This document shows positions 54,424 to 61,488 of a DNA stretch of 64,000 nt, piece after piece. How positions within the stretch are numbered: the stretch's first letter is position 1; each line of letters begins with the position of its first letter. Made by a program: the position numbers and the translations under genes. The notes under the pieces were generated by a model. That model searched no databases. It was given only the letters and a program-made list of their open reading frames with translations, and had not been told where the DNA came from. The stretch lies in NCBI GenBank assembly GCA_902519445.1, contig CABYJR010000001.1, positions 1 through 64,000 of the forward strand, in the 5' to 3' direction. This DNA comes from an uncultured Pelagibacteraceae bacterium (GTDB taxonomy: Bacteria; Pseudomonadota; Alphaproteobacteria; Pelagibacterales; Pelagibacteraceae).

Positions 54424-56377
<1,954 letters not shown>

Positions 56378-56427
56378 TACGTTTCCATTTAGAGAACACT
56401 CTAAATACAAAAATTAAACAAAATTAG

Positions 56428-56461
56428 AACCCTCGGAATGAAAGTTTCGGGGGTTTTTTTT
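56428..56461 (+). terminator. rho-independent terminator after groEL
   Basis: AACCCTCGGAA-TGAAAG-TTTCGGGGGTT then T-tract. Confidence 0.8.
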
Positions 56462-56801
56462 ATTTCTTTTTTGAAGCAAAGCACAAATATATAGCAAATA
56501 ATGCCCCTACTATCGGAATGAACGGTAGAATAAGGAGTCCCTTATTCATTTTAAGATTTTTCAATCTTCTTGAAATGTTAGCAAGTAATGAAATAAATAG
56601 TATAATTCTAAAACCAAAATAATATAATAGTGAATCTGCTTCACCGGGTGTATCTAAAAAATTAGTAATTATATAAGCACCAAATAGAAAAAAAATAATT
56701 AAAAAAATAAAATAGATGCAATATTCAAACTGATTTGAATTTCCATCAAAATTAAATGTTCCAATAATTCCCTTTTTAATTGATTGAAATAACTTATTCA
56801 T
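56460..56801 (-). CDS. DUF805-like membrane protein
   Basis: Three TM helices; FDGNSNQFEYCIYF..., ANISRRLKNLKMNKG. Confidence 0.65.
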   Translation of the reverse strand: MNKLFQSIKKGIIGTFNFDGNSNQFEYCIYFIFLIIFFLFGAYIITNFLDTPGEADSLLYYFGFRIILFISLLANISRRLKNLKMNKGLLILPFIPIVGALFAIYLCFASKKK

Positions 56802-56862: not shown

Positions 56863-57030
56863 ATGAAAGGATTAACTATAGCTGCGGGAACAGCTCTAAC
56901 TATCATTGGTGCTATTATGGTTCTTCAACCATGGGTGAGAGGAGATATTGAAGGTGCTAAAAGTTATGCGGGAATTTTAGTGGTTGGAATAGTTATATTG
57001 GTTGTTTCTCGTTTTATTAAAAAAAAATAA
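56863..57030 (+). CDS. small two-TM protein (55 aa)
   Basis: Manual ORF MKGLTIAAGTALTIIGAIMVLQPWVRGDIEGAKSYAGILVVGIVILVVSRFIKKK*. Confidence 0.55.
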   Translation: MKGLTIAAGTALTIIGAIMVLQPWVRGDIEGAKSYAGILVVGIVILVVSRFIKKK

Positions 57031-57091
57031 CTATTAGTGCTGTATTGCACCACATCAAAACTAGAAAGATGTATAGAGATAGTTTTTTCAT
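57017..57091 (-). pseudogene. orphan signal-peptide module (24-aa ORF MKKLSLYIFLVLMWCNTALIVIFF)
   Basis: Copy 1 of the signal-peptide repeat with no mature domain; ATG overlaps the upstream stop (TAATG). Confidence 0.7.
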
Positions 57092-57093
57092 TA
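57052..57093 (-). repeat. signal-peptide repeat, copy 1
   Basis: TAATGAAAAAACTATCTCTATACATCTTTCTAGTTTTGATG on the minus strand. Confidence 0.9.
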
Positions 57094-57366
57094 TGGAATT
57101 CTACAATCAGTTGTTTCTATTTCATCATCTGCAAAAAATACCACACAATACATAATCCATTTATTTTTACTTAAAGTATAAATCGCTTTATCATTAGTTA
57201 TTTTTACTGATTTAATTTTCCATCCATAATTAATAATATTATTGTTTAAAGATTCTTTAGTAGTTGTGTAATCTTTGTTCCATATTGGTAGATTTTTTTT
57301 ATCTTCAGCAAACCCAACATTGCAAAACATCAAAACCAGAAAGACGTATAGAGATAGTTTTTTCAT
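57091..57366 (-). CDS. exported small protein, unknown function, on repeat-type signal peptide
   Basis: MKKLSLYVFLVLMFCNVGFA-EDKKNLPIWN... Confidence 0.75.
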   Translation of the reverse strand: MKKLSLYVFLVLMFCNVGFAEDKKNLPIWNKDYTTTKESLNNNIINYGWKIKSVKITNDKAIYTLSKNKWIMYCVVFFADDEIETTDCRIP

Positions 57367-57368
57367 TA
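57325..57368 (-). repeat. signal-peptide repeat, copy 2
   Basis: TAATGAAAAAACTATCTCTATACGTCTTTCTGGTTTTGATGTTTT. Confidence 0.9.
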
Positions 57369-57376
57369 AAATCAGT

Positions 57377-57481
57377 TTAATCCACTTCTAAAAAGAAATC
57401 ATCCTTCTCATACCCTTCTCGTTTCATCTGATTCTGCAGTGAAGTTTGCAGTGAAGAAGTTAAATAAGTGTGTATTGGCAC
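57377..57481 (-). CDS. possible small ORF or gene-end fragment (VPIHTYLTSSLQTSLQNQMKREGYEKDDFFLEVD)
   Basis: Open frame read manually; contains a 12-nt period tandem repeat (TGCAGTGAAG x2); start codon uncertain. Confidence 0.3.
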   Translation of the reverse strand: MPIHTYLTSSLQTSLQNQMKREGYEKDDFFLEVD

Positions 57482-57525
57482 TAAATGAATGCGAATGTAA
57501 TCCCCAATTTACTCAAACAAAAATT

Positions 57526-57558
57526 CAAAAAGGGCAGTTTTTACTGCCCTTTTTTTTG
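57526..57558. terminator. rho-independent terminator, probably bidirectional
   Basis: AAAAAGGGCAGT-TTTT-ACTGCCCTTTTTTTT. Confidence 0.85.
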
Positions 57559-57609
57559 TTTATACGAAAATCATTAGTGATGAAGGAATGATGAAGGTTT
57601 CGGAGGTTT

Positions 57610-58443
57610 TTAATTTTTATAACCAATCTCTTCAAGATATTCCTTTGACATTACAGGAAATAAATATGCATCAGAATCGGTTGGAAAATTTTCCCATTCG
57701 AAATTATCTTCTGGAGCAATCATGTACAATCGAGTCACTCCATCAGTGCCAGCACCAAGATTTTTGCTACCCATACCTAGTGAGACATGGGCATTAGTTG
57801 CATAACCCATTATTCCAATTACTTCACCTTTTTTTACTTTCTTATATTTAATGCCACCACAATTTTCAGGCAAACTGATTCCTTCGCTCCATCCAATTTC
57901 ACTTTGAAATTTTCTTTCTGCGCAATTTCCTTTTGAAAAACCTGGAACTAATGGTGTGGACATCAGATGATAATAGCGAATGAAATTACCATACTTATCA
58001 TCAATAAAAACAAGTGATATATTATCAAAAGGATAAGCACATCTTTGTTTTTTTCCTGTTATTGGATTTATAATTTTTTTTGTTTGTTTTATTCTTTTTT
58101 TCACTTTTTGAGATTCATTTTGTATAATACATCGATATTGAGAACTCCAATTTCTTGCTTCATATAAAGTCATGTCAGTAATTGCCACCACAGGCATGCC
58201 GCGTTTTTTAGATATTGACTCTATAGAAGTACCATTTTTTCCTTTATATGCTGAACATCCAGGGCAACATCTATTTTTTTTTACTTTGGGATCTTCATAT
58301 GGTACTGCAGAGGGTCCAAGTTTAACTCCATTAAATTTACAAGGTAATTTTTTATAAGTTTTATATTTTATTTCTGCAAACGAATGCGATGTGAAAAGAG
58401 AAAACATCAAAACCAGAAAGATGTATAGAGATAGTTTTTTCAT
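57610..58443 (-). CDS. exported Cys-rich, degenerate M23/LytM-like protein on repeat-type signal peptide
   Basis: MKKLSLYIFLVLMFSLFTSHSFA; IRYYHLMSTPLVPG..., VKKGEVIGIMGYATNAHVSLGM resembles the M23 core; CCPGC motif. Confidence 0.65.
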   Translation of the reverse strand: MKKLSLYIFLVLMFSLFTSHSFAEIKYKTYKKLPCKFNGVKLGPSAVPYEDPKVKKNRCCPGCSAYKGKNGTSIESISKKRGMPVVAITDMTLYEARNWSSQYRCIIQNESQKVKKRIKQTKKIINPITGKKQRCAYPFDNISLVFIDDKYGNFIRYYHLMSTPLVPGFSKGNCAERKFQSEIGWSEGISLPENCGGIKYKKVKKGEVIGIMGYATNAHVSLGMGSKNLGAGTDGVTRLYMIAPEDNFEWENFPTDSDAYLFPVMSKEYLEEIGYKN

Positions 58444-58454
58444 TATTTAAATCC
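58391..58454 (-). repeat. signal-peptide repeat, copy 3
   Basis: ATTTAAATAATGAAAAAACTATCTCTATACATCTTTCTGGTTTTGATGTTTTCTCTTTTCACATC. Confidence 0.9.
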
Positions 58455-59750
58455 TTTAAATATAGGATTAATCAATAATTTTTTATGATTATATTTAAAT
58501 TTTTTGTGGTTGTAGTGTTGTGAATGTAAAATTACAATTCTTGAATCTTCAACATTAATTAGAATTGCCTTTCCGCCATATCCACCCATTCCAAAAACTA
58601 TCTTATCTTTTAAACCTGGATAATTTAAATGAAATTGTCCACCATATGATTTGGTTCGATTAAATAATGGTTCTCCCCTCATTCCATCATGATTTAGATT
58701 TTTAGGTATTCTTCTCTCATAGATTTCTTTTAAATATTTTCCAACACAATTTTGTTTTTGATAATCATCCATGATTGCTAGTGCAATCCTAAGATAATCA
58801 TATCTTGTTGCATAAAACATAGGATCTGCGTTACCTTGCCCCCGTGATGCATTTTTTTTATAGAAATATACTGGATATTTAATTTTTGCTTTGTCTTTAA
58901 ATGTTTTGTCTAATATTTTTTGAAAATCATCTCCTGTTTTAAACAAAGTATAATTAAAAATTAAATTAGTATTCATTACATTGTAGTTGTATCTTTTTTT
59001 ATCTGGTTTTTTGTCTCTAAAATAAAGATTCAAATTACTTTTAACTGAAACAGGATCGATATCAGTGCCAGATCCTCTATAATCTGCATCAACCTCACCA
59101 TTTACTATGGCAGCGCTGTCATAAACATATTTTTGATCTCCAGATGCCATATTTAAAATATCAATTAACTTATGATTTTCATACAAAGTATTTTTTACTA
59201 AACTCCAGTCACTTATTTTACTATCAACACTTTTTATATATCCCTCACAAATAGCATGACCCAATACATATGATACTAATGATTTGCCCATAGATTGGGA
59301 TCTTAACTTAGTTTGGTTGTTCATAAATTTTCCAAATTTATCATCTGGAGATATCTGATCTATTACAATTTTATTATTTTCAAAATATAAGTAACTTAAG
59401 ATTGGTTTTGTTTTTAACTGCTTTATTACAAATTTATTTTCAATCAAATCAAAATTAAACTCGTAAGGATTTTTTGATGGAAATACGGTGTAGGTATTAC
59501 TGCTCGAAGGAGCACGAAAAAAATTATCTCTATAAAAATAATATTGTAAAGTAGCTAGATTAGGATTTGCACGAAAGGGTATGTGATAAGATTTGTATCT
59601 TGTTGTTTTTTTAAAATCTATTTCTTTAAATACACCACTATCTTTTAAGGACTGGGGAGCATTAGAAATGTCTGTATATTCAGATGCTTTTATTGATGTA
59701 AAAAGAGAAAACATCAAAACCAGAAAGATGTATAGAGAGAGTTTTTTCAT
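58443..59750 (-). CDS. exported serine beta-lactamase-fold hydrolase on repeat-type signal peptide
   Basis: S-x-x-K (QSMGKSLVSY), YNYNVMNTNLI, GGQFHLNYPG...GGYGGKAILINVEDSRIVIL. Confidence 0.82.
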   Translation of the reverse strand: MKKLSLYIFLVLMFSLFTSIKASEYTDISNAPQSLKDSGVFKEIDFKKTTRYKSYHIPFRANPNLATLQYYFYRDNFFRAPSSSNTYTVFPSKNPYEFNFDLIENKFVIKQLKTKPILSYLYFENNKIVIDQISPDDKFGKFMNNQTKLRSQSMGKSLVSYVLGHAICEGYIKSVDSKISDWSLVKNTLYENHKLIDILNMASGDQKYVYDSAAIVNGEVDADYRGSGTDIDPVSVKSNLNLYFRDKKPDKKRYNYNVMNTNLIFNYTLFKTGDDFQKILDKTFKDKAKIKYPVYFYKKNASRGQGNADPMFYATRYDYLRIALAIMDDYQKQNCVGKYLKEIYERRIPKNLNHDGMRGEPLFNRTKSYGGQFHLNYPGLKDKIVFGMGGYGGKAILINVEDSRIVILHSQHYNHKKFKYNHKKLLINPIFKGFK

Positions 59751-59758
59751 TATTTAAA
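59697..59758 (-). repeat. signal-peptide repeat, copy 4
   Basis: ATTTAAATAATGAAAAAACTCTCTCTATACATCTTTCTGGTTTTGATGTTTTCTCTTTTTACATC. Confidence 0.9.
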
Positions 59759-59914
59759 TACGTAAATTATCGTTAAAATTATAAGTACTACGATAATCCA
59801 AATAGTGAAATTAGTTAAGAATTGTTTTAGTTTAGAATTTGATTGTAAAAAAGCAGGAAGGACTAATAAAAGTACTCCTATCATATAAATTACGGGTAGT
59901 ATCTGATCCAACAT
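59750..59914 (-). CDS. small two-TM protein (54 aa), translationally coupled to the downstream hydrolase
   Basis: Manual ORF MLDQILPVIYMIGVLLLVLPAFLQSNSKLKQFLTNFTIWIIVVLIILTIIYVFK*, stop overlaps next ATG as TAATG. Confidence 0.6.
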   Translation of the reverse strand: MLDQILPVIYMIGVLLLVLPAFLQSNSKLKQFLTNFTIWIIVVLIILTIIYVFK

Positions 59915-60083
59915 TCCAAACCTTAACCTGCCTCTGAAATGAAGTCATCTTTTGAATTGCTTTTTATAGTGATGAAGAGTAATGAAATAACCTATATTGC
60001 ATTAAATGCGGCGTTTATTACTTGGTGCAATATAACAAATAAATTATTTGATATATTAATCGTTATTTGATGAATTTAATTAA

Positions 60084-60809
60084 ATGATTAACATAAATAA
60101 ATCCTTTGTTCACTTTTATGATGTAAAAAATTCTGAAAGAGTGAGCGTTAAATCAGTACTAAGTACTGAAAATAAAAAAATTTTTTTACTAAAAGAATGT
60201 AGGTCAGAAACTATAAGTGAACATCCATTTTTGCACTTAGATAGATATGAATTCTTTTCAATTATAGAAAATGATAAAACTCATTTAATCAGAACATCTC
60301 CCGTGGATAGCAAGAAGGAAAATATTGAATTGAGCAATCCATTAAAAAAAAAGCATTGTATAGTTGAAAGTGATGTTAATTATTTAAATTTTGAAAAAGT
60401 TAATGAAATAGTTACATCAGGTAAAACGGATAATATTTATTCTGAAATTAAATATCAGCACGAAGGAATAAAATATAATTTAATCTCAAAATGTGAATTT
60501 ATAAATTATAATACTGAAAAAAACAGTGAAAAGTATTTACAACCTATAATGGGATATGTTCCTTTTGTCCATAAAAACCAATTAAGATACGGTTATGTTG
60601 TTTTGCACATAACTGAAAAGAAAAATGGATATTTAGAGTTTTTACTTAATGAAAAAACTGGTATTTTAAATACCAATCCAAAACAAAATTTAATTAGATT
60701 AAATATTAAAAAAATTTTAAATATGTTTTTATTTTTTGTGAAAAAAAATGATTTTACAAAAGTAATTTCTATTAAAGAAAGTAAAATTAATTTTTTTACA
60801 TATAATTAA
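60084..60809 (+). CDS. hypothetical protein, no recognised family
   Basis: 241-aa ORF with coherent codon usage, no motif recognised. Confidence 0.65.
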   Translation: MININKSFVHFYDVKNSERVSVKSVLSTENKKIFLLKECRSETISEHPFLHLDRYEFFSIIENDKTHLIRTSPVDSKKENIELSNPLKKKHCIVESDVNYLNFEKVNEIVTSGKTDNIYSEIKYQHEGIKYNLISKCEFINYNTEKNSEKYLQPIMGYVPFVHKNQLRYGYVVLHITEKKNGYLEFLLNEKTGILNTNPKQNLIRLNIKKILNMFLFFVKKNDFTKVISIKESKINFFTYN

Positions 60810-60810
60810 T

Positions 60811-61488
60811 TTAAATTAACGAATTTAAAAAAGGTCGCAATTTTGTGGCTTTTTTTTTTGAAATTAGTAAACACGCTTGAGAATTTAAAATACATCCATC
60901 CTTAAGAACTCTAAGGTTATTATCTTTTAAAGTTTTTCCTGTCGAAGTTATATCTGTAATAATTTCAGATGATCCAATAAATGGATAGGTCTCTGTAGCT
61001 CCAAGACTTGGTACAATTTTGTATTGGGTGATTCCCTTTGAAACTAAAAAATTATTAGTTAGATTTGGATACTTCGTAGCAACTCGTAATCTGGTATTCT
61101 TTTTGTCCCGAAAGTCAAAAGACACTTCTTCTAAATCTGCTAATGTTTGAACATCTATCCAATCATTAGGAATAGCAACTACTACTTCGGCTACACCAAA
61201 ATCTAGTTTTTTTTTAATTTCAATTTTTTTTTGAAAATTAATAGATGATTCTTGCAATAGATCTAGACCAGATATCCCTATGTCAATTGTGCCGTCACCA
61301 AGTCTTTGGATTATTTCTTTGGCGTGCAAATAAATAATTTTTGAGTTAGGCAAATTCTCTATTTGCGCAAAGTAATTTCTTTCACCCCCATTTGATGTTG
61401 GTTTAAAATTATTTTTTTCGAAAAAACTTATTGAATCTTCTTTTAATCTTCCTTTGCTTGGTAAACCTATGGTTATTAAATTTTTCAT
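60811..61488 (-). CDS. hisG: ATP phosphoribosyltransferase, short catalytic form
   Basis: IGLPSKGRLKEDS, GDGTIDIGISGLDLL, DITSTGKTLKDNNL. Confidence 0.94.
   Translation of the reverse strand: MKNLITIGLPSKGRLKEDSISFFEKNNFKPTSNGGERNYFAQIENLPNSKIIYLHAKEIIQRLGDGTIDIGISGLDLLQESSINFQKKIEIKKKLDFGVAEVVVAIPNDWIDVQTLADLEEVSFDFRDKKNTRLRVATKYPNLTNNFLVSKGITQYKIVPSLGATETYPFIGSSEIITDITSTGKTLKDNNLRVLKDGCILNSQACLLISKKKATKLRPFLNSLI

Follow-up and report, generated by a model that had tools for sequence, protein, structure and literature searches.

Shared signal-peptide DNA blocks and a cassette insertion site at the groEL stop codon in SAR11 bacteria

The window, by which we mean the whole stretch of DNA analyzed here, covers 64,000 nucleotides from an uncultured Pelagibacteraceae bacterium. 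Between its groEL and hisG genes lies an island made up of two tandem cassettes (Table 1). Cassette B (57492-56378) contains the 91-aa gene, an M1 scar, the 55-aa gene and the DUF805 gene. Cassette A (~59986-57501) contains the 54-aa, 435-aa and 277-aa genes, and its R-end is so decayed that the core is no longer recognizable. A 241-aa plus-strand gene of no recognized family (60084-60809) adjoins hisG and lies outside both cassettes. Searches of the region against Rfam gave only chance-level matches, under the gathering scores, and a promoter scan of the region was uninformative because its matches were fewer than those in shuffled sequence.

Table 1. Positions of the features of the groEL–hisG island in the window
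Feature	Position	Strand	Basis or remark
groEL, insertion target	54722..56377	+	ORF list, junction comparison
Core TTACATTC at the groEL stop codon (insertion site)	56370..56377	-	Empty versus filled junctions
Terminator, groEL-side L-end of cassette B	56426..56457	.	Not present in empty sites; recurs at further cassette borders
113-aa DUF805 protein, cassette B cargo	56460..56801	-	Pfam, 33.5 bits versus cut-off of 25.7
55-aa ORF, cassette B cargo	56863..57030	+	ORF list
M1 copy 4, without payload	57053..57091	-	1 mismatch; start of 24-aa ORF 57017-57091
Payload 3, 91-aa exported protein, function not assigned	57091..57366	-	ORF list, Pfam search
M1 copy 3	57328..57366	-	Codons 1-13 of the 91-aa gene; 1 mismatch
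R-end of cassette B: paired repeats TTCACTGCA at 57455 and 57443, leader, M1	57367..57492	-	Core-to-repeat distance 37 nt, as in most of type 2
Core TTACATTC between cassettes A and B	57493..57500	-	Identical core bounds cassettes in other genomes
L-end of cassette A: repeats TTCATCAT/TTCATCAC at 57595 and 57584; terminator 57554-57527	57501..57595	-	Layout as in other L-ends
Payload 2, 277-aa Cys-rich exported protein, weakly M23-like	57610..58443	-	Relatives in G051 and G223 only
M1 copy 2	58405..58443	-	Codons 1-13 of the 277-aa gene; 0 mismatches
Payload 1, 435-aa exported protein	58443..59750	-	Probable beta-lactamase-fold hydrolase
M1 copy 1	59712..59750	-	Codons 1-13 of the 435-aa gene; 1 mismatch
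54-aa membrane-like ORF, first cassette A gene	59750..59914	-	Relatives in G120 and G051
Decayed R-end of cassette A: repeat TTCATCAC at 59976, leader	59915..59986	-	No clear core
hisG, other island flank	60811..61488	-	ORF list, locus comparison

The 39-nt signal-peptide block M1 (ATGAAAAAACTATCTCTATACATCTTTCTGGTTTTGATG) occurs four times on the minus strand of the island. Pattern matches with at most one mismatch fall at 57053-57093, 57328-57368, 58405-58445 and 59712-59752, against a chance expectation of 0.00 and none in 100 dinucleotide shuffles; no further copy with up to three mismatches is present in the rest of the organism's own genome (733 kb, 64% complete). Pairwise identity among the four copies is 0.95-0.97 over nt 1-39 and 0.30-0.60 across the 40 nt upstream, and it reaches background beyond about nt 60 (0.17-0.39 after nt 70). 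The 24-aa ORF that begins with copy 4 runs into the 3′ end of the gene on the opposite strand, and this copy looks like a scar.

The initial annotation had described four near-identical signal-peptide modules, fronting three different proteins, one of them of 91 aa, and a lone 24-aa ORF, with unrelated mature parts and one pair of copies sharing additional flanking sequence. Our comparisons agree on each of these points, and the ORFs, of 435, 277, 91 and 24 aa, stand in the order that it gave. By phmmer the mature parts belong to separate families, with no full-length homology between payloads, and the pair with the longer shared tract, ~70 nt in all, consists of copies 1 and 2, which have ATTTAAATA in common upstream and TTTTCTCTTTTxACATC downstream. 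Its names for the payloads hold less well: the ORFs are as described, but the M23 and beta-lactamase labels are only hinted at. Payload 2 scores 17.8 bits against Pfam M23, below the gathering cut-off of 28.7. Payload 1 is probably a beta-lactamase-fold hydrolase, a fold suggested by S153xxK156, invariant across 12 homologs, and by marginal profile matches, to a class C-related hydrolase with PDB profiles (E 0.064) and, for 1 of the 12 homologs, with Pfam (0.0047). A single-sequence structure model of payload 1 was too poor for use.

M1 is not peculiar to this locus, as would have been the case had the initial annotation's modules been absent from other strains and loci. Copies with up to three mismatches are present in 11 of 297 Pelagibacteraceae genomes, and relatives detected with a nucleotide model, some of which are M2 (below), in 64 of the 297, with as many as nine per genome. 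The genes downstream of the block fall into 25 families, 12 of which have it with no more than three mismatches; among them are MORN, pentapeptide-repeat and M23-like proteins, recognized by eye and with Pfam, as well as many unknowns. Across SAR11 genera, M1 fronts 16-17 unrelated payload families. When the signal-peptide-like starts in the fetched loci were clustered, M1 and a second block, M2, emerged as two large DNA clusters, with 17 and 14 payload families in this clustering. M2 encodes MKKLLGI[LV]VLGLL (DNA ATGAAAAAACTTTTAGGGATC(T/G)TGGTTCTGGGTTTGTTG), is present in 16 of the 23 genomes of the genus with up to nine copies per genome, and fronts 14-22 unrelated payload families. Because the loci were partly picked by similarity to M1, these family counts are no census, and genome-wide repeats were sampled through the fetched loci only. 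A possible third shared signal peptide (MKKILWILILIF.FFT..SF) fronts two unrelated payloads (L019:1766 and L141:2313).

The boundaries of the blocks can be read directly from comparisons between families, taking one copy per family. For both M1 and M2, identity is ~0.3-0.4 up to the base before ATG; from there it is ~1.0 at ATG, at least 0.95 over the first ten bases and ~0.9 near nt 35, levels that are imposed by the use of the 39-nt window as the selection criterion, as the sharp upstream edge is not. After codon 13 identity drops, to 0.45 at nt 40-60 and to background beyond. Some M1 and some M2 copies carry a common tail, TGGTGCAATGTTGGGTTTGC (WCNVGFA), which indicates that the signal peptides are themselves mosaic.

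What is shared is DNA and not only peptide sequence. At amino-acid-identical positions of M1 copies on different families, the same codon is used in 87% of cases versus 51% expected for copies with up to three mismatches, a rate inflated by the choice of close copies; with up to eight mismatches allowed, the values are 71% and 53%. The M1 consensus codons have a probability of 8e-8 under local codon usage, and codon 7 of M2 is the rare Ile codon ATC in all 48 copies. The pN/pS ratios are moderate, 0.37 and 0.58, over just 39 nt. The blocks are also seen to change places within families. Payload 1 carries M1 in the window, M2 in G003, in G016 and on contig C50 of the window's own genome, and unrelated signal peptides elsewhere; its homologs occur in 46 of the 297 genomes, with other signal peptides. 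Aligned with the G003 protein, the window protein is 54% identical overall and diverges in the signal peptide and directly beyond it. (Close to the end of contig C50, at locus L165, a frame change seems to have disrupted the paralog there.) The MORN and M23-like families likewise have mixed signal peptides. That one payload family has M1, M2 or other signal peptides depending on the genome indicates that signal-peptide DNA is exchanged between genes; mixing within three families also answers in part the question, posed in the initial annotation, whether module trees disagree with payload trees. Together these observations support the view that M1 is reused DNA fused to unrelated exported proteins, a swappable export leader.

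Several other readings of the shared block have to be weighed against this one. Whole-gene tandem duplication with later divergence of the mature parts would fit the adjacency and common orientation of the window copies, but it is contradicted by the lack of phmmer homology between the mature parts, by the presence of the block in many unlinked genes and by payload 1 homologs that, at ~50% identity, have other signal peptides; we regard it as hardly tenable. Selection at the level of RNA or DNA on the first 13 codons, for example for small-RNA pairing or translation start, could keep M1 and M2 identical without recent copying, and it is in keeping with an identity that starts exactly at ATG in both blocks, with invariant rare codons such as the ATC of M2 and with the near identity of M2 across genera. 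Such selection alone, however, leaves unexplained how unrelated genes acquired one block, why there are two distinct blocks and how swaps arose within families, and we consider it quite improbable. Finally, a near-identical peptide on many exported proteins is what would be expected if the signal peptide marked a functional sorting class under protein-level selection. Codon-level identity is nevertheless higher than selection on the protein would predict, members of payload families can do with other signal peptides, and neither NCBIfam nor Pfam signal-peptide models matched the window proteins, so that a sorting class seems very improbable. Exchange of signal-peptide DNA between genes remains our preferred reading.

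The groEL–hisG locus itself is an insertion hot spot. The stop codons of the two genes lie ~5 bp apart in 11 genomes of the genus, and in other genomes the gap holds differing genes; the expectation that payload sets at this locus vary between strains was borne out. Base-by-base comparison of filled and empty junctions places the exchange point at TTACATTC, an 8-bp core formed by the groEL stop codon and five coding bases. The hisG-side junction has the native left flank and the cassette right flank, and the groEL side is reversed. The core occurs once at the empty site, flanks cassettes at both borders in G057, G073, G082, G100 and others, and is repeated between tandem cassettes. Many inserts at the groEL stop codon are bounded by TTACATTC, and their two ends are asymmetric.

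The ends are laid out with a spacing that is directly visible in the 20 distinct R-ends compared. Type 1 R-ends consist of the core, 50 nt (in 10 of 10) and a pair of TTCATCAC repeats, and type 2 R-ends of the core, 37 nt (in 8 of 10) and a TTCAYTG pair; in many R-ends the repeats are followed by AAAGCAATTCAAAAGATGACTTCATTG...GTTAAA. At the L-end, a repeat pair and a terminator precede a stretch of mostly 93-96 nt to the core (13 L-ends). The type 1 repeat pair was found in 14 of 297 genomes, every time at the groEL island (a reversed-pattern control gave 0), and in six genomes it flanks one cassette on both sides. Type 2 repeats are mostly at groEL, though elsewhere too (G087:C3:127222 and 129213; G051:C1:400918; G223:C1:39638); in G051 and G223 these distant repeats lie ahead of an M23-like gene whose signal peptide resembles M1. 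As regards Tn7-like transposons, which have terminal inverted repeats along with transposase and target-selection genes, the cassette ends by inspection are asymmetric and do not form inverted repeats. As in islands of the tyrosine-recombinase type, a short core is repeated at both ends and arm-type repeats lie at a fixed distance from it. Some filled sites in other genera have no R-end with the core TTACATTC. Several of the genomes are fragmented single-cell or metagenome assemblies, but these structures were seen repeatedly in assemblies made independently, long contigs among them.

The cargo comprises HsdMSR type I restriction-modification systems, an AlwI-type enzyme, PD-(D/E)XK proteins, a Cas4-like/helicase protein, MORN proteins and M1 proteins, and the smallest cassettes are 0.8 kb. 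Many cassettes, such as those with type I restriction-modification systems, have no signal-peptide gene. Three genomes have one and the same 6.6-kb HsdM/HsdS/HsdR cassette at the groEL stop codon (L259:3187-9914, L260:208-6915 and L167, the last in G170, where HsdS has a differing N-terminus). At four loci (L154, L156, L166 and L169), the groEL 3′-end terminator and last bases are copied at internal cassette borders, and the copies sometimes resemble the version of a different species more closely than that of the host.

No recombinase was found with these structures. Phage_integrase genes, usually one per genome, were absent from the island, both in and next to the cassettes, in the 16 genomes searched, and no recombinase, nor an integron integrase beside the array, was seen among the island ORFs. 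G009 and G123 each have a second integrase, but at another place and without the core. When IMG/VR was scanned, M1, M2, the leader and the R-end all returned no match, and neither cassette end matched phage records. A single IMG/VR match to the repeats was rejected as a low-complexity tract in a contig of 49% GC, without the core. A search of the openly accessible literature, including PMC2217521, likewise turned up no account of the groEL site or of the M1 and M2 blocks.

It could be argued from this that no site-specific recombinase is involved and that the island is altered by ordinary homologous recombination between strains. Homology arms could be provided by groEL and by the ends of 100-200 bp that cassettes share, and in genus g6 some inserts contain groEL 3′ remnants. 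(Two loci of this genus, L218 and L235, have a 620-aa TypA-like gene and a groEL 3′ remnant between hisG and groEL; in genus g3 this TypA-like gene normally flanks groEL.) On the other hand, lone cassettes stand at otherwise empty hisG–groEL junctions with only ~8 bp in common, and the repeats lie at fixed distances on both ends, in one orientation, like the ends of mobile elements. We consider homologous recombination rather unlikely and favor site-specific recombination, carried out in trans by a putative recombinase.

How, then, are signal-peptide exchange and cassette insertion related? The R-end leader runs unbroken into M1 in the window (57366) and in G100, G264 and G170, and the same leader precedes other signal peptides in other cassettes. 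Genes far from groEL can likewise begin with M1 or M2, but there the leader is absent. Probably, then, it is the R-end that provides the leader, and the exchange of the signal-peptide block is independent of it. Given in addition the cassettes that lack signal peptides, signal-peptide exchange and cassette insertion appear to form two layers that need not be linked. The initial annotation had suggested a secretion cassette or a recombination seam; the reused, swappable leader stands, but the site-specific seam is the groEL core TTACATTC and not the signal peptide.

We think it probable that two overlapping mechanisms are at work, the copying of signal-peptide blocks between genes and the insertion of small cassettes at the groEL stop codon. 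M1 is one of at least two SAR11 signal-peptide DNA blocks through which mature proteins that are not related come to have one export leader in common, presumably by short-tract recombination. The shared tract extends from the start codon to within or just after the signal peptide; a ATGAAAAAA start, common to nearly all such genes, could provide microhomology for copying and is probably why the tract starts there. A well-preserved cassette consists of the core TTACATTC, an R-end with paired repeats and leader, the cargo, and an L-end with repeats and terminator beside groEL. Where the R-end leader passes directly into M1, as in several cassettes, the cargo would receive a ready-made leader and export signal and might be expressed from the R-end. 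More tentatively, and with doubts that outweigh our confidence, one may imagine a SAR11 gene-capture system at the groEL stop codon: small integrase-less cassettes would be moved in trans by a putative recombinase, their end would supply a leader and often a swappable signal-peptide block, captured genes would be expressed and exported at once, and M1 and M2 would be shuffled between exported proteins like bacterial exons.

SAR11 bacteria are among the most abundant organisms known and have very small genomes, which raises the question of how they gain new functions. The reuse of signal-peptide blocks at the nucleotide level is a direct instance of modular evolution of bacterial proteins, and one that is open to testing. 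The cassettes at the groEL stop codon, with their defined site, ends and cargo, provide a handle on the spread of defence and surface genes in the ocean, and any metagenome can be screened for their core and repeats.

Several known systems resemble parts of what we describe. YSIRK-G/S signal peptides of Gram-positive surface proteins also place one signal-peptide type on many unrelated exported proteins, but their conservation is that of a protein motif, whereas in M1 and M2 it is the DNA that is kept, down to rare codons, and a single payload family may have either block or neither. The vsp/vlp surface lipoproteins of Mycoplasma are similar in having clustered genes with near-identical 5′ ends and divergent mature parts. 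There, however, conservation extends upstream and the mature proteins belong to a single family, whereas here identity begins at ATG and the payloads are unrelated. Rickettsia palindromic elements are likewise short in-frame DNA in unrelated genes of an alphaproteobacterium; they are palindromic and inserted inside genes, in contrast to M1 and M2, which always form or replace the gene start. Integron arrays, like the groEL island, gather small promoter-poor cassettes in tandem, at one site and in the same orientation, but no integron integrase was found here, and the borders are the 8-bp groEL core with direct repeats. The hypervariable regions of SAR11, in which attC sites are reported absent, have strain-variable gene content (HVR1-4) with no site-specific boundary described, and none of HVR1-4, judged by gene numbers, lies at groEL (SAR11_0162) (PMC2217521). 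Islands integrated in the 3′ end of a conserved gene offer a parallel for the site itself. One of them, PAISt of Streptomyces, is a large island at an 8-bp site in the 3′ end of bacA that excises in modules (PMC4057263). The groEL cassettes differ from it in being as small as 0.8 kb and in that their recombinase was not found, but they share with it a fixed 8-bp site at the 3′ end of a gene, an intact target gene and modular content (PMC4057263).
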